DNA of 64,000 bases. Source: Diplonema papillatum (taxonomy: Eukaryota > Euglenozoa > Diplonemea > Diplonemida > Diplonemidae). The position numbers and the translations under genes are program-made. The stretch covers positions 124,001-188,000 of the forward strand of contig JAPJBO010000058.1 in assembly GCA_030068145.1 (NCBI GenBank), read 5' to 3'. The notes under the pieces are model-generated. The model saw only the letters and a program-made list of their open reading frames with translations, ran no database searches and was not told where the DNA came from. How positions within the stretch are numbered: the stretch's first letter is position 1; every line of letters starts with the position of its first letter. Positions 3,722-54,534 of the stretch are shown piece by piece.

Positions 3722-3814
3722 CTTCCTCCAACCCCGCACACCCAGGTCCCCTTACCCTCTCTGTCCATCTGGAAGAACCAGCTGGCCAGGACGCAGATCC
3801 GGAAACCGGATACC

Positions 3815-4687
3815 GTGGACAGTTGCCGCACACTAAGGAAACTGGAGGCATCGACACATCGGACGATGGCCGAGTGCTACAAATCAGCAGCCTTCATATC
3901 GGTGCTGAAGCGCAGCCTGGTGTTCCACGCAGCGGTGCTGAGATTTCGACCCTCGATCGACAGAGAAGCGAGCTTCAGACTCTGGCTCCAGCATCTTCTC
4001 AACACCAACAGACTACAGCCACAGTCAGTGTTGCAGTACCTGGTGTATTTCCGGCAGTCCCTGAGGACACCCACGGAAGCTTTTGCCAGAGCTATCGCCC
4101 GGAAGCTGAACCAGTTCGGTCGCCACGAGGAGAAGATGCAGAAGGTTCCTACACCTTCAGCCATCAAGACCGTACTAGCAAGAGGAGATTCAGTCATCTC
4201 CGCGGCATTGGCCCTGCAGCTAGCCACCGGTGCCCGGTGGGTCGATCTGGCCCAACTACAGCTGAACCATGTTCAGTTGAAGAGAAACGACCTCCGCCCA
4301 GGGCAGATGATGATTTCATTTGTAGGGGGGAAAACCGATCTGCGGAATGCAGGTCAGTCGTTAATCCTGCCGTCGCGGGGTCCCCTGACGGACCGGTTCC
4401 TAAACTGGCTCAAACATCGCGAACCATCCCGACCGTCAGGTCTTGTGTTTCAGGGACTCACGTACACCAGGTACAACGAGTTCATCAGGACGAACCTGGG
4501 GGTCACCACGAGGTTCGTTCGACTTGCTGCTCTCAGCCGGGTAGCTCAAATTCTTGGCGAAGAAGCAGCGCAGGCCCTGGGACGCCATCAAGCGGTGACA
4601 TCGACCACGAATTACACCCCCCGGGCAACCTGGGGACCAACAGCCAGGACCAAGACAGCAACGCAGGTCCTACAAACGGAGGGGTAA
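3815..4687 (+). CDS. Tyrosine recombinase / integrase-like protein of DIRS-like element
   Basis: About 290 residues; the first ATG in frame is at 3866. The second half has the fold signature of phage-integrase-type recombinases: LALQLATGARWVDLAQLQL (box A arginine with the usual RxxDL spacing), a beta-hairpin lysine in FVGGKTDL, then LGRHQAVTSTTNYTP, where the final Tyr would be the nucleophile. The middle HxxR is not clear (VRLAALSR stands in its place) and LGH is changed to GRH, so catalytic competence is doubtful. In DIRS and Ngaro elements this enzyme integrates circular cDNA. It belongs to the decayed element upstream and not to the myosin gene. Confidence 0.65.
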   Translation: MDSCRTLRKLEASTHRTMAECYKSAAFISVLKRSLVFHAAVLRFRPSIDREASFRLWLQHLLNTNRLQPQSVLQYLVYFRQSLRTPTEAFARAIARKLNQFGRHEEKMQKVPTPSAIKTVLARGDSVISAALALQLATGARWVDLAQLQLNHVQLKRNDLRPGQMMISFVGGKTDLRNAGQSLILPSRGPLTDRFLNWLKHREPSRPSGLVFQGLTYTRYNEFIRTNLGVTTRFVRLAALSRVAQILGEEAAQALGRHQAVTSTTNYTPRATWGPTARTKTATQVLQTEG

Positions 4688-12436: not shown

Positions 12437-31452
<19,016 letters not shown>

Positions 31453-44859: not shown

Positions 44860-46377
44860 ATATCGCCGGGATTGCAGAATCGCTTATTGGGCGTGTCTGA
44901 CTCACGTCCAAACCCTTACTGGAACTTCTTTCCTCGGGTTCGTTCGGACCGGCCTCCTCTTCGCTCCACCCGGTGTGCTTGAAGCAAGCTGGGCCATCTG
45001 GGGTGCAGAAATAGTCCAACGCGCCGCGCCGACAAGCCCCGTGCGAGGGAAATAATCAAACAAAAAGATACCCGGACCCTCAAGCGAGTTTGCACCTTTT
45101 TTTAAAAAAAAAAAGGCCGAAGTTCACCACCGGAGGACTTTTACGAAGCGAGCTTCCACTGTGGTCGTTTTGATGCTGTTCTTTTTATTTTCTCGGCGCG
45201 TAGGGTGTCATGGAGGGGCCTTCACGTGGCGACACTGCTGACCGCACCTTAATTGAGTACAGCAGCAGTGACGCGCCGAGAGTCGTAGTAGCAGTAGTAG
45301 TAGGAATTGGCAGCTAGCTTCTGGCCTCATCGCACTCGGTCTCGGCTTGTGTCATCGAGTTCATTCTTCATCAGAAAGGAAAGGAAGGAGAGAAGTCTGA
45401 CAGAAGCCTGATAACTAGCTTACTAGCGAATGGGATAGGTACAGCACAGTGCCACAACCCCGTCCGCTCTGCCCTGTGGCTGACCGTCTCGACGAGCTTG
45501 TGTTGAGCGCAAGCGCCAAGCCCCAAAGTGCGCCACGCCTTGATGCTTTAGTTTGGGAAATCGGTAGCCACTTGCCGCTTCGCTCACCATTTCAACGTGC
45601 CTTGAGGGGCTGGTCGTACCTCTCCTTCTCTCGTTTGTCTTTTCTTTCGGTTGTTCTGCGTCTGATTCCTCTGATGCTGCATTCTTCATCTGGGAGGTTC
45701 CTTATGCAAGTTTGTTTCATTGTCCGAAACGGAGACACCTACACCTGGACGAAGCCAAGCCGAGTTTATCCCCGTTCATGCAACAAACGAGGTTGTTTCC
45801 AGCACTCACAGAGTGCCCAGCCTACCCCAAGAAAAGACGCATCGTGTTCGAATGCGAGCTTCTGTACGAACCCAGCGAACAGCTTCTGGGGCAAACACGA
45901 CACACTCGTGTTCGTCCTTCGTGCAACGGGCAAGGTTACTTCCAGCACCGAGAACGCCTTGAGATGAGTTCGGCGCATCGCTTTTGCGATGCCGAACATT
46001 TAGGAGAGGGGGGGCGTTCAGCGGGTTTCCGGATCATTTCGTGATACGTCCTCAAAAGGAAATAGTCCCTGAGACGAGGCACCCGGACGACGCTGAATTG
46101 TTACCCGCAGTTCGAGTACGGGTCAGCCACGCAGCGGGGCGCACAGAGATACTCTGGCTGACTGCCTACATGGGGAAGAACGCCAGCAAGACGATCTGTT
46201 GCCGAACCAAATGATGCCAGGTAAACTCTCGAGTGTGTCTTGTAGGGGAGGCATGTTACTCAAGACCCTGGGTATTGTAGCTCTCTTTTCTCACTAAGTC
46301 CGTGAGGTCGTCGAAAGCAAACCTTTCCTGAGCATTTTGGCCTGATTTTATTATTCCATATGGTATATATCCATATG
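44860..46377. other. Intergenic between hydrolase and retrotransposon
   Basis: No gene recognised. Holds a family VI repeat (45208-45263) followed by short AGTAG repeats. The right end (TGGTATATATCCATATG) is the flank of the tyrosine-recombinase element. Confidence 0.45.
45208..45263 (+). repeat. Dispersed repeat family VI
   Basis: GTGTCATGGAGGGGCCTTCA, CGTGGCGACACTG and TGACCGCACCTTAATTGAGT recur at 58372-58427 with about three differences. Confidence 0.9.
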
Positions 46378-46668
46378 TTAACTTCTCATTGTGAGGCTCA
46401 TCGACAATTTAACCTATGTTTTATGACGTACTCCCATTCTCCCAAACAGGTTCCTGCCAACTGGTTTTACTTCCTTTAACTGGTTTGGCAGAGCATTGGG
46501 ACGCGAGCCGTCAGGCGAGGCGGCCACGTACGCGGCGTTCTGCGCGCTGCTACGTTTGGCAAACTGCTTGGTGACCCGTCACATGCAGTTTGGCAGGCGG
46601 CTGGTTCGCCGCAGGTAGCATTTCGAGCGCAGCGTTACCTCAGACGTTTTCGGGAACCTTTGGGTTCG
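46378..46668 (-). repeat. Split direct repeat B2 (outer 3' end)
   Basis: 291 bp, starting TTAACTTCTCATTGTGAGGC on the plus strand, matches 48359-48648 except for one extra base near GGCAGGCGGCTGG. Confidence 0.95.
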
Positions 46669-46874
46669 CTACCGAGATCCTGAAGCTCGCTGCCAAACCA
46701 GGGAAGCTAAACCCAGAACTTGTCGAATGGGAAGGGCAGCGGAAGGGACATGCACTGAAATCCGGACGCACTGCCTTGAAGGAATGAAACATGACCTCGA
46801 AGCGTTCACAGTTCTGCCTTCCTGTCGATGACGATAGCGCCCGTCCTGAGGGAGATCCGGGGCGACGTGGGCAC

Positions 46875-48260
46875 TCATACCTTGCATCTGCGCCTCTTCA
46901 GGGGCTGCTCATCGCCCCGGGACTCCGCACTGGTTGCGCCGCTCTCGGGTGTGCGGTACAGATGCTTCAACCTGACGGGGTTGTAAAACTGCACCGCTTC
47001 GACACAATCGGGCTCCTTCAAAACCCTCTTGCTGTAGTGACGGGCCATCGACTCTGTGGCCCAGTCTCCTACGTCCTGGAGAGCCGTCAGGTTGATGCCC
47101 GCCTTCAATAGCGTACAGCAGCCACCTATTCTGGCACTGTGGGTGCAGAAGGGCCTGCGGTTGCGCTGCGACTTGTGCCTCCCGTTCAACGTCTCCAGAA
47201 TGCCTCTGGAACCCGCCCCTCCACACAGGGCCTTGTAGAAGGAGGGGTAGGTCGTGAAAGGACACAACAATTCGTTATCTGCAGCCAGACGCTTCAGGAT
47301 TCCGAAAACCTTGACCGGACAGTACGGAACGGAGCGTTCGCCGGCGCCAGAGGCCCCTGCGCTCAGCCTCGGCATGGACAGAGGAGGGACTAGGTCTATA
47401 GCTTCGAACTCTAGCACGCTTGAAAACCCCTCGCCACCTCCTTTCGCGACTCTCCAGACCACTCTGACCTTCCCCCTCCCGAGTTCTACGTCACCCGTCC
47501 GCAGAGACTGCATACTCGAGGAACGCAGCAGGGTGAAGTGTTCCGCCAGAAGCTGGAGACCTGCGTTGAGCTGGCTCTGGGTCTCTATTTCTGAGAAGAC
47601 CACTCTCAATTGAGCTAATCCCAGGGGCTCCTCCTGCTCAGGCTTGGGGGACTTCTTCTGCAAAGCTGCAATTACTCCCCTAATCCTGTTCGCCGGGTCG
47701 CTGAGACCGTGTCCCTCCGCCTTGTTCTCTGCCAGGATGGCTTTCACCACACTCTGCGGCGCCCTGAAACCGTCCTCCTCTCCCATCTGGGTTAAGCGAA
47801 GGTACCCAGCGAAGTCCTCCACTCTAGAGACTTCGATAGGGTACGGCCTTACCCCTATCCCTGCACACCACTCCTTGTACACCTTCGTGCTGGAGGCGTA
47901 GGCCGCCTTGGACGAAGCCTGCAGCAGGCAGTCTCGTATCGCCCTGCGAGCCTCCTCCCTCGAATGCTTCGCGATCGTTGCCCGAAGGGCGTTCCTCTGC
48001 GCGGTATTGTAGGTGCGGGCCGAGCTCTTACTTTCGCACTGTGAGCCCGCCCGACCCGGCAGCTCGGCCGCTAGGCCTCTGAACCTCTCGTACGCTTCCC
48101 TCCCCGGACGCGGTCCAGGGAGAGCCCACCACTTCAGCGAGCTGAAGGAGGCTAACGTCACTCGGCTGTTGAGAAGCGCCAGCGACCTGGTCAGGGCGAC
48201 CCACTCGTCCGCCGTAAACCTGGTACTCAGGTGCTCCACAGCCGATGTATCCCAAGTCAT
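46875..48260 (-). CDS. Tyrosine recombinase of the retrotransposon
   Basis: About 461 residues, starting MTWDTSAVEHLSTRF. It replaces the DDE integrase of LTR elements and would integrate a circular DNA copy. The C-terminal catalytic half shows box A LLRSSSMQSLRTGDV, then THSARIGGCCTLLKAG (HxxR), VGDWATESMARHY (GDW in place of GHW; Tyr nucleophile). The N-terminal half holds a core-binding-like helical region (ASSTKVYKEWCAGIG). The gene lies between A2 and B2, an unusual place; in described Ngaro-type elements the recombinase precedes B1. Same strand as RT. Confidence 0.85.
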   Translation of the reverse strand: MTWDTSAVEHLSTRFTADEWVALTRSLALLNSRVTLASFSSLKWWALPGPRPGREAYERFRGLAAELPGRAGSQCESKSSARTYNTAQRNALRATIAKHSREEARRAIRDCLLQASSKAAYASSTKVYKEWCAGIGVRPYPIEVSRVEDFAGYLRLTQMGEEDGFRAPQSVVKAILAENKAEGHGLSDPANRIRGVIAALQKKSPKPEQEEPLGLAQLRVVFSEIETQSQLNAGLQLLAEHFTLLRSSSMQSLRTGDVELGRGKVRVVWRVAKGGGEGFSSVLEFEAIDLVPPLSMPRLSAGASGAGERSVPYCPVKVFGILKRLAADNELLCPFTTYPSFYKALCGGAGSRGILETLNGRHKSQRNRRPFCTHSARIGGCCTLLKAGINLTALQDVGDWATESMARHYSKRVLKEPDCVEAVQFYNPVRLKHLYRTPESGATSAESRGDEQPLKRRRCKV

Positions 48261-48280
48261 TCTCGGGTGGGTGGGGTGGG

Positions 48281-48358
48281 AACGAGAATTACACCTGTTT
48301 GTGTCGATTGCGAAGCCAACGAAGGCTTTGGTCGGATTTAGCTGACATAAAACTCCAG
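48281..48358 (-). repeat. Split direct repeat A2 (internal)
   Basis: 78 bp identical to A1 (52938-53015), from AACGAGAATTACACC to AAACTCCAG on the plus strand, directly joined to B1. Confidence 0.95.
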
Positions 48359-48648
48359 TTAACTTCTCATTGTGAGGCTCATCGACAATTTAACCTATGT
48401 TTTATGACGTACTCCCATTCTCCCAAACAGGTTCCTGCCAACTGGTTTTACTTCCTTTAACTGGTTTGGCAGAGCATTGGGACGCGAGCCGTCAGGCGAG
48501 GCGGCCACGTACGCGGCGTTCTGCGCGCTGCTACGTTTGGCAAACTGCTTGGTGACCCGTCACATGCAGTTTGGCAGGGGCTGGTTCGCCGCAGGTAGCA
48601 TTTCGAGCGCAGCGTTACCTCAGACGTTTTCGGGAACCTTTGGGTTCG
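48359..48648 (-). repeat. Split direct repeat B1 (internal)
   Basis: 290 bp, matches B2 at 46378-46668 with a single-base gap, and abuts A2 so that the pair forms the presumed circle junction. Confidence 0.95.
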
Positions 48649-48806
48649 TTCCCAATGGCTCTCTTCCCAATGGTTCTCGTGCGTGGCTTGTTGCCGTGGC
48701 GATCCCCTCTTCAGAGCTGAGGGGGCGAGAAGGCGAAGGATGCTCTCTGATGCAGATGACGACTTGATGGAGTAAAAGAAACAAAAAAAGCTCGGGCAGC
48801 GACAGT

Positions 48807-50735
48807 CTATCGGTGCTCTGAGACAGAACCTCCTCGCGCGGACCCACCACTCATGCCGCCCATTGCTCTCCGCAACACTGCGGTCCGGGGAAAGACTCTG
48901 CTGGGATTGACCCCTCGTATTGGCTGGTCTGCCCACTCCAACCTCAGGCGACTAGGCAGGTCGGAGAGATTCTGCTCTCCAGGCACCCTTTCGAAACGAG
49001 CCGTGGCCCTTGCCCTGGCCAAGAACCCCCACAACCAGTGCACCGGCTCGAAGAGTTCGGCGGACCTGGAGCTACCCTGCAGGATACTCTGCAGCGCCAC
49101 GTTGTTGTCGATCCAGGCCGCTAGCACGAAGTCTTGCACTCCCTCAAACCAGTGCAACATGGACACCGTGACCGCCGCAAACTCAAGAATGTGGATGCCC
49201 ACCTTCTCAAACTCTACCGGGACAGGACAGCTGAAGAACTCGACACCCACAAGCGTGTCCCCCATCATCGTCGCAAGAATGGCACCTAGGCCCTTGGGAC
49301 ACGCGTCGGTGTGTAAAACGTATCGCCTCTCTGGGACCCCTGATAGAAGAGTGGCGGCAGGAATGAATTTGTTGAAGTTCAGGTGAGGGTCGTCGAGGAG
49401 CTCGAACCACCACAGGAGGGCCCTCCGCAGGTCACCGTTCAGCGGAAACCCCAGCCGGGTGGACCTGGCATCCGAGCGCCTGTAGATCGGTTGCAGCATA
49501 ATCCTTCCTACCTTTCCATACAGAGCGGCCGTGGCGAAGTTCAGCTTACCGGCCAGGGACGATGCCTCACCCGGAGACAGCGAGTTGCTACCGAGGAACT
49601 GTTGCAGTAGGCACCTCAGTTTCTCCTTCCTCGGTTCAGAGAGGAAGACGTTTACACCCCCGGAGCTCATGCTGAACATAAGGCCAAGGTGGCGGAAACA
49701 GTTGCTCCGCGCCGTCTTCTCCTCGTTGAACGCTGTCCCCAGGATGGTCTCTAGCAACTCTAGCAGATCCCCGAGCAGGCTCTCGTCCTCATGTAGGCCC
49801 GGGCAAGCGAAGTCGTCGAAGTACTGCATCAGCGGCACCCTCATGCCGACTCGAACAATCCTCACCAGCGTCTTCGCGAACGCGTTGTAGTGAACCACGC
49901 TCGCTGATTCACCGAAAGAGAGTTTCTTCAGCTTGAAGAACCTCACGGAGCCATCGCCATCCTCTGCTACCACTGTCCTACAGAGGGGCCCATTGTCAGC
50001 CCCCAGCTGTCTGTAGGCCTCACTGTGATCGAGGCCTACCATGCAGAAAGCGCAGACATCGATCGAATCCAGTTTCCCCTTCGACTGTACCGCTGACGCC
50101 CTGTTAACCTGCGCCATCTTGCCGTCGTCACAGGCCCTTTCTTTCGGGGAGCAACCTGGCTTGTCCGCCTTCACCTGCTTAACTATGAACCTACGAAGAA
50201 AAACAGAGTTGCGCGGCAATGGAATCGACAACTCCTTCATGTGGCCAGCCTCAACGTCCTTCAACACCGATTTCCATATGGCCGACCTGTTCTCTCTCGA
50301 GTCCAGGCTGATGGCCCCCTTCGTCCTAGCGAGGACCTCCTGCTGACGCCCAAGGAGCTCCGCTATCGAGAGTTCCGGCGTCGAGACGGGGCCCCTCTCG
50401 TAGATGGCGTCGTAAGCTAGAACTCCAGACATAGGAAAGCCGTTCCTCAGGTGCGCTACCAGGCTCCCCATGCCCTCGATACCCGTATCCCGAAGCATCT
50501 CCTCCAGGAGCCGCACGTTACAAGGTCCCTTCGGCTCTCGTCGTAGATCCTCGGCTCGCTTCCTCCACTTCAGAAGAAAAGCCGACCGGTACTGCTGACA
50601 TTCTTTCAAAGTGCTCGAGGCGGTGAAGGTTATGGCCGCCGTCAGCTCCGGCTCCAGGTTGGCGACTGCCGGCGAGGGAGGCTCTGCATCGAGGGAGGAA
50701 AGAAAAAACGTCACCTTCATATCCGTTCCTTCCAC
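48807..50735 (-). CDS. Reverse transcriptase-RNase H of the retrotransposon
   Basis: About 642 residues counted from a GTG; the first ATG is at 50720 (MKVTFFLSSLDAEPP). RT: LDHSEAYRQL (A), LSFGESASVVHYNAF (B), MQYFDDFACPG (C, catalytic DD), LGLMFSMSSGGVNVFLSEPR. RNase H: LHTDACPKGLGAIL, ILEFAAVTVSMLHW, AWIDNNVALQSILQG and VPGEQNLSDLPSR supply the D-E-D-D set. This RT-RH layout without an aspartic protease or DDE integrase is typical of the DIRS order. The frame is the same as the gag ORF and stays open back to the gag TGA, so readthrough synthesis is possible; starting at the ATG is the simpler alternative. Confidence 0.9.
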   Translation of the reverse strand: MEGTDMKVTFFLSSLDAEPPSPAVANLEPELTAAITFTASSTLKECQQYRSAFLLKWRKRAEDLRREPKGPCNVRLLEEMLRDTGIEGMGSLVAHLRNGFPMSGVLAYDAIYERGPVSTPELSIAELLGRQQEVLARTKGAISLDSRENRSAIWKSVLKDVEAGHMKELSIPLPRNSVFLRRFIVKQVKADKPGCSPKERACDDGKMAQVNRASAVQSKGKLDSIDVCAFCMVGLDHSEAYRQLGADNGPLCRTVVAEDGDGSVRFFKLKKLSFGESASVVHYNAFAKTLVRIVRVGMRVPLMQYFDDFACPGLHEDESLLGDLLELLETILGTAFNEEKTARSNCFRHLGLMFSMSSGGVNVFLSEPRKEKLRCLLQQFLGSNSLSPGEASSLAGKLNFATAALYGKVGRIMLQPIYRRSDARSTRLGFPLNGDLRRALLWWFELLDDPHLNFNKFIPAATLLSGVPERRYVLHTDACPKGLGAILATMMGDTLVGVEFFSCPVPVEFEKVGIHILEFAAVTVSMLHWFEGVQDFVLAAWIDNNVALQSILQGSSRSAELFEPVHWLWGFLARARATARFERVPGEQNLSDLPSRLRLEWADQPIRGVNPSRVFPRTAVLRRAMGGMSGGSARGGSVSEHR

Positions 50736-50807
50736 GGGGGACGAGCCTTTCGGTCCTCCGGCTGGCGAGCTGGGGGGGGGGGAGGGAAGGGTGCTCGGCG
50801 CGGGAAG

Positions 50808-52016
50808 TCACTTCCTCCCAGGGTCCGCCCTGGCCCTCTTCGTCGGCGGGCCGCCGTGCTGCGCTTCACGCCCCCTTCTGGGCTGGTCTGCCTGCTGCAC
50901 CCTGCCGGCGCCGACGGCTCTCTGCCTGCGACTAACCACGAGGGCCTTACCCGCGTCCTGCGCTTGGCGGGGCTCTTGCCCGTACCTGTAGGGATCCTGT
51001 CTCGGACGGTCCTGCTGCCTTTCCAGGGCGAAGGACTGAATCCCTATCAGGACGCCAGCATCCTCCTGCGTCAAGTCCCGGACCACACCGGCGGCCAGCT
51101 GTTCCCCTTGCCTCGGCCTCTTAGCACTGGCGAGTTGGACCCCGCGCATCCTCCTGTCATACTCCTTCGCAACTTGCAGCCGGTATCTGCAGGCGATGTT
51201 GGTGACGACAGCGGGATACGCGAAGACGAAGACGAGAGGGCTGGGGCCCAGTGCACCCGTTAGGGCGGCCGCTACCAAGAGTCTCTGCAGCGAAACCGCA
51301 AGGTGGGATATTGGAGCATCCTCGCGACCCCTCGCCTCCTTTCTCTGCAGAACCCCCGCTTCGGACAGCACGAACCCCTTCTCTTCCGTCTCACCACCAT
51401 GCGTCCAGCCCTCCTGCGAGAACGGGGGGCGCGAAACGTCCACAAACGGAAGAAGGAGATCAGGGACTTCCTCCCCTCTCTTCTGAAACGCATTCAGCTG
51501 CGCGTATGTGGGCTTCAGGAAGTCCGGCAGACTCGACAACCCGAAAAGCTCCAGCTGCGTGTCGACGTCCAGGATTCTCCTGGGCAGCTGAGCCGGGCGA
51601 AGAGCGGCCTCCTCCTTCCGCCTCCTAGCAGTCTCGCCCTCCACCGACTCCTGCTGGCGAAGCCACTTCTTTGCCGCGGTCCGCAGCCTCGGGGGACACT
51701 TGGCCGGCAAATTTGCCGCGCCTTCCGTCTGAGCGCAGTCAAGGAGGGAGCTGTAGCCCAGCGCGTGCAGCTCCTTCGCGGCCTTGACGAAGTCGGCCGG
51801 CTCCGTGTCCGTGTAGCCGGCCGCCCACGCCTCGAACACCAACATGGGTGCCAGACCCTTCCTCTCTGCGTCCAGGCTGTCCACCACGGCCCTGTAGGCC
51901 TCGGCGTGGGCCCCCGCGTCGAACCCGGGAACGAGCTCGAAAGCTTCGCAGAGGGGGTCCTGGTGGCCCATCCTCTCAACCTCCGACCTCCTTGACCAGC
52001 ACTCGGGAATCGACAT
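50808..52016 (-). CDS. Gag-like ORF of the retrotransposon
   Basis: About 402 residues from MSIPECWSRRSEVER. No CCHC knuckle. The first half is helical and acidic/Ala-rich, a hydrophobic stretch (LAVSLQRLLVAAALTGALG; PLVFVFAYPAVVTNIACRY) lies near residues 245-285, and the end is strongly basic (PPTKRARADPGRK), fitting nucleic-acid binding. Identified as gag mainly by position as the first ORF. It ends in TGA followed by CTTCCC; 24 sense codons link it in frame to the RT ORF. Confidence 0.7.
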   Translation of the reverse strand: MSIPECWSRRSEVERMGHQDPLCEAFELVPGFDAGAHAEAYRAVVDSLDAERKGLAPMLVFEAWAAGYTDTEPADFVKAAKELHALGYSSLLDCAQTEGAANLPAKCPPRLRTAAKKWLRQQESVEGETARRRKEEAALRPAQLPRRILDVDTQLELFGLSSLPDFLKPTYAQLNAFQKRGEEVPDLLLPFVDVSRPPFSQEGWTHGGETEEKGFVLSEAGVLQRKEARGREDAPISHLAVSLQRLLVAAALTGALGPSPLVFVFAYPAVVTNIACRYRLQVAKEYDRRMRGVQLASAKRPRQGEQLAAGVVRDLTQEDAGVLIGIQSFALERQQDRPRQDPYRYGQEPRQAQDAGKALVVSRRQRAVGAGRVQQADQPRRGREAQHGGPPTKRARADPGRK

Positions 52017-52493
52017 CTTATCACCTGTTGAACCCCGTGTTTTTTTTTTTTTTCGTTACTCCCTGCTTTTTCACCTCTTGCATCGCAGGCCATATGCGCG
52101 TTCGAGCGACCATCTCTTGCTACTGGCACCTACAAGCACCGCCGCCACAGAGTCATGCTTCTCGTCGCCGGGCACTCCACACTGCCTCTACGGCTCACAT
52201 CCCCTCAATTCTACAGAACTCCGCATATCGCCGGCTTATTACACTGTAGAGACGAAACTGCCTTCTCAGGGCACCTGCATGATGGGGTGCTTGTGCGCAA
52301 AAAGCGGGGGAAAAAAGGCATTCACTCGCTCGCGACCAGAGGGGAGGCATGAGCGATTCTCGAGTCTCTGCAACGCCCTCTGTTCCCTCGGATACGGTAG
52401 CACTTCCGACATCCGACTCGCCTCGTGAGGTATCCCCAAACCAGCAGGGGCGTCCTAGGTGCTCTTCACGAATGTTCTCGACACGGCTGTCAT
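52017..52493. other. Retrotransposon leader, proximal part
   Basis: Untranslated-looking sequence between the gag ATG and the leader repeat; includes an oligo-T run (52040-52053). Nothing recognised. Confidence 0.4.
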
Positions 52494-52830
52494 CCGACGT
52501 GCTTTTCTTGCGGGATTTATTCAACGCAGCAGGCGGGGCATCCGACGTGCTTTTTCTTGCGGGATTTATTCAACGCAGCAGGTGGGGCATCCGACGTGCT
52601 TTTTCTTGCGGGATTTATTCAACGCAGCAGGTGGGGCATCCGACGTGCTTTTCTTGCGGGATTTATTCAACGCAGCAGGTGGGGCATCCGACGTGCTTTT
52701 TCTTGCGGGATTTATTCAAGGCAGCAGGTGGGGCATCCGACGTGCTTTTCTTGCGGGATTTATTCAACGCAGCAGGTGGGGCATCCGACGTGCTTTATGT
52801 GTAGCAATCTCACACGCAGCAGGTGGGGCA
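52494..52830 (-). repeat. 48-bp tandem repeat in the retrotransposon leader
   Basis: About six units built on ATCCGACGTGCTTTT, CTTGCGGGATTTATTCAACG and CAGCAGGTGGGGC, lengths 48-49 bp because of T-run changes, with the final unit degenerate. It lies between A1 and the gag ORF, so it would be part of the element RNA leader. Confidence 0.9.
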
Positions 52831-52937
52831 TCGCCAAACGTTCCCAGGCGGCTTCAGACAGATCTCATCGTACACTGCCCGTCTGGCACCTCGTATTCGC
52901 TTCGACGTCAGTTCCGCTAAAGCGATCGCTGGATCCA

Positions 52938-53015
52938 AACGAGAATTACACCTGTTTGTGTCGATTGCGAAGCCAACGAAGGCTTTGGTCGGATTTAGCT
53001 GACATAAAACTCCAG
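52938..53015 (-). repeat. Split direct repeat A1 (outer 5' end)
   Basis: 78 bp identical to A2 at 48281-48358. Identity stops at CTCCAG, followed by GTATATACGATGCC of the flank. Confidence 0.95.
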
Positions 53016-53295
53016 GTATATACGATGCCAACAGGGGGGGGGTTTGGGCAGATGTTTTCTGGCATAGTAAGATACTGGGCAAGTGGGGTATAGGACCTAC
53101 ACCCCCCCAAAAACCATGTTTGCGAGCCGATTTCGAGCTCAAATGCTCTCGGCGAGCCTTCTTTTGAGCACAAAACGCTGTTTTTCTGGATTTCGAGGCC
53201 CCGGTAGGGTAACGCCCGTGCAATGACTTTGACGCAGCATCCACCCGCCAAAAAAGGAACTGAACAAGTTCTTACAATGCGCGCCTCGGGAATGC

Positions 53296-53619
53296 GTGTT
53301 GTCGAAACATCGGTTGAAGAATTCGCGAGGCAAGGCGTATACGAAGTACGATAGGTCATCGGGCACCATGAAGAGACGCTTCAAAGCGACGAGAGCCATG
53401 ACCCGATCGGGTTCGTTGTATCTCTGTGTACAGAGGGTGGCAAGAGGTGGGCGACCAACAAAGGTGACCCCGGGAATGAGGCAGCAGGCATTCGACGATC
53501 ACGAGCAGGCATCGGCACCAACGTCACGGGTCATCAAAAAGCTTTGCAGCAGACGAGACGGTTGTCGCACAGTACCCTCTCGTACCCTTCCAGCTGGTGT
53601 ACGAAGAAAGCGACCGTGA
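53296..53619 (+). pseudogene. Deleted copy of the foldback ORF in the left arm
   Basis: Begins like the right-arm protein (KYDRSSGTMKRRFKATRA), then loses about 60 codons and resumes at VARGGRPTKV. Many differences remain conservative. The internal deletion makes a functional product unlikely. Confidence 0.6.
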
Positions 53620-53723
53620 ATCAAAAGGTGTCGTACACCACGTACCGCCGGCTACGTGGTGCTCAGTTCCAGCACCTTTCTCGACGGACCGATGTGTGTG
53701 ACACCTGTGCAGAGGGAACATGA

Positions 53724-54251
53724 TTAACAATCGCCTTCGTACACTAGCTGCAAGGATACGAGAACGTCCTGTGCGACAGCCGTCTTGTCTGTAGTGCAAA
53801 GCTTTTTGATGACCCGTGACGTTGGTGTCGATGCCTGCTCGTGATTGTCGAATGCCTGCTGCCTCTTTTCCGGGGGCACCTTCGTTGGTCGCCCACCTCT
53901 TGCCACCTCTTCCCTGTTCTGTCTGTTGGCCCATAGCTTATCCCCAACTTTCATGCCCACTACCGCGTACCGCTGCCTCACCCATTCCAAATCCTGCACG
54001 ATCTTGCGCCGTGTCAGCTCGTGCGTGATGCTGTTGAACATTTCAGGACATGAACCGGACAACTCACGCCAGATTCGGGCGTTCTCAGTCTCTGTACACA
54101 GAGATACAACAAACCCGATCGGGTCAGCTCCTGCGACCTTCTCCAGAAAGGCTCTCGTCGCTTTGAAGCGTCTCTTCATGGTGCCCGATGACCTATCATA
54201 CTTCGTATACGCGTGCCTCGCGAATTTTTTCAACCGATGTTTCGACAACAT
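53724..54251 (-). CDS. Foldback-element ORF, unknown function
   Basis: About 175 residues, basic, beginning MLSKHRLKKFARHAY. Segments: a Lys/Arg-rich N-terminus, a helical middle (FNSITHELTRRKIVQDLEWV; RQRYAVVGMKVGDKLW) and a RGGRPTKVPPEKRQQAF stretch that resembles DNA-binding linkers. I recognise no transposase catalytic motif. A further piece across the centre (RRTDVCDTCAEG in the plus-strand arm frame) hints at the start of a larger transposase in the family's full-length copies; that is speculative. Confidence 0.45.
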   Translation of the reverse strand: MLSKHRLKKFARHAYTKYDRSSGTMKRRFKATRAFLEKVAGADPIGFVVSLCTETENARIWRELSGSCPEMFNSITHELTRRKIVQDLEWVRQRYAVVGMKVGDKLWANRQNREEVARGGRPTKVPPEKRQQAFDNHEQASTPTSRVIKKLCTTDKTAVAQDVLVSLQLVYEGDC

Positions 54252-54534
54252 CAGTTCCTTTGGTGGGTGGGTGCTGCGTCAAAGTCATTGTAAAGGCGTT
54301 ACCCTACCTGGGGCCTCAAAATCCAGAAAAACAGCGTTTTGTGCTCAAAAGAAGGCTCGCCGAGAGCATACGAGCTCGAAATCGGCTCGCAAACATGGTT
54401 GTTGGGGAGGGGGTGTAGGTCCTATACCCCACTTGCCCAGTATCTTACTATGCGAGAAAACATCTGCCCAATCCCCCCCCTTCTGGCATCGTCTCATATG
54501 TCGTCACGCGGCCGCACCCCGGGGCTTCGTAGAC

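Follow-up and report, generated by a model that had tools for sequence, protein, structure and literature searches.

The PAT group of retrotransposons with a tyrosine recombinase (YR) has been classified into Pat1, Toc and Kangaroo, and in the scheme of the same survey DIRS and PAT elements carry a methyltransferase (MT) (PMC4157794). In that description, the internal repeats lie between the MT and the YR both in Kangaroo and in the nematode form of Pat1, the latter represented by 142 elements (Szitenberg et al., 2014, PMC4157794). Toc3 of algae is distinguished there from Kangaroo by the direction of the YR and is given as having no zinc finger; the text implies that its repeats would be positioned as they are in Kangaroo. 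Ngaro elements are depicted as A1-[ORFs]-B1A2B2 (PMC8547959), and a simplified description of PAT elements agrees with the premise that B1A2B2 stay together (PMC6681497). For DIRS1-like elements, the short trinucleotide at the junction is in many cases described as ATT or GTT, and insertion as leaving no target duplication (PMC3266345). PAT-like elements have further been reported from relatives of Chlamydomonas (PMC8226300) and from Ectocarpus (PMC12477816).

The element described here occupies 6,638 bp on the minus strand, from 53014 to 46377, of the window, by which we mean the whole stretch of 64,000 nucleotides of Diplonema papillatum DNA that was analysed. In sense direction its parts follow each other as A1, 48/49-bp tandem repeats, an ORF in gag position, RT/RNase H, B1, A2, YR and B2 (Table 1). 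This agrees with the order A1 - gag - RT/RH - B1A2 - YR - B2 that an earlier note on this DNA had read from the sequence, the three ORFs all lying on the minus strand; the location given there was also right, with each end off by one base (46377-53014, not 46378..53015). The repeats are nearly perfect, as had been claimed: A1 and A2 are identical at 77/77 positions, and B1 and B2 at 291 of 292 aligned positions, with a 1-bp indel and different inner ends. These matches are far beyond chance, and other copies contain the same pairs of repeats. B ends in GTTAAC and A starts with TGGAG, so that the outer ends, once joined, would indeed recreate the internal junction GTTAAC|TGGAG, as the same note had proposed. 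Host DNA lies outside A1, its sense-strand end being ..TATATACC, and adjoins B2 beyond GTTAAC. A single-strand fold of the B-A junction showed nothing exceptional (z 0.33).

Table 1. Parts of the window element, listed in sense order, with positions in the window.
Feature	Position	Strand	Length	Remarks
A1, left terminal repeat	52938..53014	(-)	77 bp	basis: identity to A2
48/49-bp tandem repeats	52491..52846	(-)		leader between A1 and first ORF
First ORF, gag by position	50808..52055	(-)	415 aa	stop to stop
RT/RNase H ORF	48807..50807	(-)	666 aa	stop to stop; YFDD motif
B1, internal copy of right terminal repeat	48358..48653	(-)	296 bp	
A2, internal copy of left terminal repeat	48281..48357	(-)		
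Tyrosine recombinase (YR) ORF	46875..48260	(-)	461 aa	counted from first ATG, 48260
B2, right terminal repeat	46377..46673	(-)		inner end about

Profile support for the proteins of the element is weak but consistent. The YR ORF, whose frame is open stop to stop from 48389, matched Phage_integrase (9.5e-6) with 25.9 bits, just under the Pfam cut-off of 27.1 bits, and the RT ORF gave weak matches to RT_RNaseH_2 (6.3e-4) and RVT_1 (0.03), both under the Pfam cut-off; none of the NCBIfam models matched either protein. When the YR was compared with solved structures, all 17 matches were chains of Cre or Tre (E 0.05-0.82), and in the two alignments printed its HSAR, W and Y stand in register with residues near the end of the Cre chain, whose roles are those generally known for Cre. 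The first ORF, called gag from its position alone, had no Pfam match, and a search of viral contigs with the RT protein returned no relative. These two ORFs share one frame and are separated by a single TGA (window 50803-50815, sense GGAAGTGACTTCC), which is centred in a short inverted repeat with the arms GGAAGT/ACTTCC around one base. The letters are identical in copies L029, L030, L014 and L032, and the inverted repeat is thereby kept in both subfamilies of the element (see below); it is a possible recoding or replication signal. The RT ORF of the window lacks a short in-frame stretch that L014 and L029 carry.

In the searched genome (271 Mb, 2,910 contigs) exact matches numbered 120 for the A-start 24-mer, 50 for the B-end 23-mer and 17 for the B-A junction. 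A sites were drawn from 100 of the 120 A-start matches, part of which were fetched. The set that was read came to 89 sequences, made up of the window together with 20 stretches 10 kb long, five between 3 and 8 kb, 60 short ones around A sites and three around junctions. A script sorted 100 A sites present in these 89 sequences by their left and right neighbours. Most frequent was an A with host DNA to its left and the leader to its right (39 sites; L017 and L083 have a flank in common, which leaves 38 distinct ones), followed by host and then B (20), host on the left with a right side matching no probe (18), B on the left with YR on the right (15), B on the left with a right side matching no probe (3: L026, L035 and L044), B, then A, then B (3), and host on the left with YR on the right (2: L020 and L031, both with a truncated YR). 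Twelve of the exact B-A junctions (17 in all) continue into the YR, one has a shortened A (L026) and four belong to miniatures.

The position of the YR is the same throughout this set. In none of the 18 regions that run from RT to B (the window, L009-L011, L014-L017, L019, L022, L024-L027, L029, L030, L032 and L033) does a YR lie between RT and B1, and of 22 genomic YR starts the 20 that were compared by coordinates, all but C1588 and C2290, follow directly after an A repeat. The order thus holds in further copies, including those of a second subfamily (L029 and L030), whose parts are arranged identically and whose gag, RT and YR DNA is 74-76% identical to that of the window. The leader tandem array differs in length among copies and is about 75% identical in subfamily 2; in L033 (480-4206) it extends over about 3.7 kb, against about 0.36 kb in the window. 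Between the window copy and L029, dN/dS is 0.106 for the first ORF, 0.142 for RT, and 0.171 and 0.258 for two parts of the YR, which is frameshifted in L029; the coding sequence is constrained between the subfamilies (dN/dS 0.11-0.26). For the close pair formed by the window copy and L032, the RT value of 0.388 says little because dS is only 0.01. The A and B repeats are more conserved than coding DNA: the window copy and L017 are identical at 98.7% in A, 98.7% in B1 and 90.6% in YR, and the window copy and L029 at 96% in A, 92% in B and 76% in YR.

These counts bear on the reading that a rearrangement of a Ngaro- or PAT-type element displaced the YR of the window copy into the repeat block. 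The published order of Ngaro (PMC8547959) would speak for it, as does the existence of rearranged copies, namely L009 and L011 with their internal inversions. Yet copies with the recombinase before B1, by which the earlier note would have recognised the window copy as rearranged, are absent from the 18 regions, the YR follows A in two subfamilies at 74-76% identity, and it is constrained between them; we reject the rearrangement, which is hardly credible on these grounds. Within each of eight copies, B1 and B2 differ at 0-4 positions, versus 22-31 between subfamilies, and A1 and A2 differ at 0-1 positions within copies. Such near-identity of B1 and B2 would be expected from a cycle in which the ends are copied anew from the internal block each time, and the published replication model implies near-identical repeats at insertion (PMC6681497).

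The earlier note had assumed that Ngaro and PAT elements keep B1A2B2 together and had raised the prospect of a new structural class. The assumption fits Ngaro as described (PMC8547959) but not the nematode form of Pat1 or Kangaroo, whose internal repeats are published as lying between the RT part and the YR (PMC4157794), and the layout is therefore already known. What stands is a split-direct-repeat YR retrotransposon with its YR between A2 and B2, seen in the window and in the sister copies: the position of the recombinase is real and common to them, but the layout has been described before. As far as the published descriptions go, Toc3 resembles the element in its split direct repeats, in a YR that is not inverted and in having no Gag zinc finger (Gag being identified here by position only), and differs in the MT that the DIRS/PAT scheme leads one to expect and that was not found in the window element. 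Both the nematode form of Pat1 (Panagrellus redivivus) and Kangaroo (Volvox carteri) are alike in having their internal repeats between MT and YR, and Kangaroo also in having no zinc finger; Pat1, however, is described with a Gag zinc finger and an MT, neither of which was found here, and the YR of Kangaroo is given as inverted, whereas the three ORFs here lie on one strand. Ngaro shares the split direct repeats and, by its description, the absence of an MT, but its internal repeats lie downstream of the YR, with B1A2B2 together, which is not so here. DIRS1-like elements are similar in their short junction trinucleotide (at the junction AAT, AAC) and in their insertion without target duplication, and differ by the inverted terminal repeats and internal complementary regions reported for them.

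Very probably, the element is a PAT-type YR retrotransposon, Toc3-like in its layout. It has the split direct repeats A1..B1A2..B2 and genes for RT/RNase H and YR, whose profile matches fall under the Pfam cut-offs, but no methyltransferase domain was found in either subfamily, and we accordingly call the layout PAT/Toc3-like and do not file the element as a PAT member. The combination of PAT-like repeats with Ngaro-like content (no MT, no zinc finger) could also mark a structurally new class, that is, a separate lineage of the DIRS order. No MT was detected by Pfam in either subfamily, and only 153 bp separate the RT stop from B1 in the window element, leaving no room for an MT there; the first ORF of the window contains no CCHC motif. 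Against this, MT loss is described as recurrent, including in a Pat1-derived lineage of C. briggsae, and Toc and Kangaroo are likewise reported to be without zinc fingers (PMC4157794), so that we consider a separate class unlikely. To the known elements this adds, from one genome, two subfamilies in which no MT was detected, insertion sites defined to the base, a target core and a group of miniatures.

Insertion sites could be defined to the base. Of 68 distinct left flanks, among them those of sites whose inside matched no probe, 66 have a C directly before A, and 27 have AAC as the last three bases, versus 1.5% AAC in surrounding DNA; the positions before this target core are A/T-rich, like the B end (AATTTAAC in subfamily 2). 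The joined flanks of nine copies (out of 15 joined) were searched in the genome and 40 candidates were scored, which yielded uninterrupted paralogous target sites for four of the nine (L009, L011, L017 and L025) and, among these candidates, no empty site for the other five (the window copy, L014, L019, L021 and L023). Seven empty-site paralogs were aligned, and in all seven the flanks meet directly, with no duplicated or lost junction bases; to the left of a junction there is one gap, caused by a single A within a run of A, and to the right there are two more gaps of one base, each over 20 bases away. Insertion without target duplication or loss is precise for these four copies, and together with the C before A at 66/68 sites this is as expected of integration by a YR. 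Integration at a short core common to site and junction, with the target site left unduplicated, is likewise a feature of the DIRS order. Solo A repeats of 77 bp, 100% identical to the A of the window, were observed at L012 (4398-4474) and L013 (5567-5643); both stop at the inner boundary of A, with no B match in those 10-kb loci, and the DNA adjoining the solo A of L012 resembles the insertion site of L017 in its unoccupied state.

We propose the following cycle, for which we infer the RNA intermediate, the circular intermediate and the enzyme activities. The element would be transcribed to RNA, and completion and closure of the cDNA would use the internal B1A2 block as the template for both ends, as in the published model. 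Closure would yield a B2A1 junction like B1A2, and the Cre-like YR would recombine this new junction with a short core in the genome (NNC, with AAC as the most frequent form), preceded by an A/T-rich stretch that resembles the B end; the element would thereby be inserted with no target duplication or loss.

This raises the question of which B-A junction is used, as B1A2 and the B2A1 of a circle would be nearly identical over about 370 bp. If a double-stranded circle offered two equally used junctions, the order A-YR-B-A-gag-RT-B would be expected in about half of the insertions. B stands to the left of A at none of the 38 distinct A-leader sites, i.e., there is no permuted insertion among them, in a count that covers one genome and sites chosen mostly by exact A matches, and beside which stand the three B-A sites with a right side matching no probe. 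We tentatively consider, with some doubt, that the integration intermediate might offer the recombinase the B2-A1 junction only. The active junction would then be marked by the way it is made, for example by being newly closed, by being partly single-stranded, or by lying end to end in linear cDNA; if true, this would alter the circle model usually applied to elements with split direct repeats. Sequence beyond the repeats, or loss of permuted copies, may also cause the strict order. An explanation of the junction choice by the leader tandem repeats, acting as required arm sites of the recombinase, was weakened because the leaderless L021, L023 and L095 also sit between host flanks. The strict order, together with the miniature A-B and A-B-A-B derivatives, is in our view the most interesting result of this analysis. 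Two points about integration become testable: why only one of a pair of near-identical B-A junctions serves, and whether the smallest mobile unit is A-B by itself.

Single [A-gag-RT-B] units lie between host flanks in L014, L027, L032 and L033, A-YR starts with host DNA on the left in L020 and L031, and L095 holds a complete A-B-A-B miniature, L094 and L096 partial ones. All of these would fit a composite of [A-gag-RT-B] and [A-YR-B], joined by recombination at the B-A junction and each still mobile alone. However, homologous recombination between B1 and B2 after insertion would give identical single units, both A-YR-only sites have a truncated YR, and the permuted order occurs at 0/38 sites, which makes a composite rather improbable. 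Ten copies have common internal losses in gag and RT (L015, L016, L017, L019, L022, L024-L027 and L033); among the open frames listed for six of them (L015, L016, L017, L019, L024 and L025) the longest is 276 aa, and the left flanks differ in six (L017, L019, L025, L026, L027 and L033). The defective form has therefore spread, presumably helped by proteins that other copies supplied.

Miniatures consisting of A-B alone lie between host flanks in L021 (133 bp) and L023 (371 bp). One common A|B junction is found on three contigs, in L094, in the second unit of L095 and in L096, and the A-B-A-B form therefore did spread. As a general account, mobilised families of miniatures were rejected, since the A-B junctions, read by eye, looked unlike one another; many miniatures may thus be single events, either in cDNA or after insertion. 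The internal inversions of L009 (3745-4133) and L011 (3168-4483; both in oriented coordinates) affect the 5' region and nearly coincide in their breakpoint within the first ORF, at about 51724-51729 of the window, a few bases from the palindrome GGCAAATTTGCC (51706-51717).

The window contains several further features. A nested imperfect palindrome with arms 95-98% complementary (53035-54480) starts about 20 bp outside A1, and the one ORF scanned inside it (53724-54278) had no Pfam match. On the plus strand, an ORF of 321 aa (3722-4687) had no Pfam match and resembled a tyrosine recombinase model of XerA type only faintly (E 0.06, far below cut-off); it is perhaps a Crypton-like remnant. An ORF of 1,461 aa on the minus strand (14772-19157) with an RT domain (4.5e-24) is probably a LINE-like element. 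Another such element, on the plus strand (24499-30336), carries an OTU domain: its ORF of 1,945 aa matches OTU protease, endonuclease, RT and RNase H.
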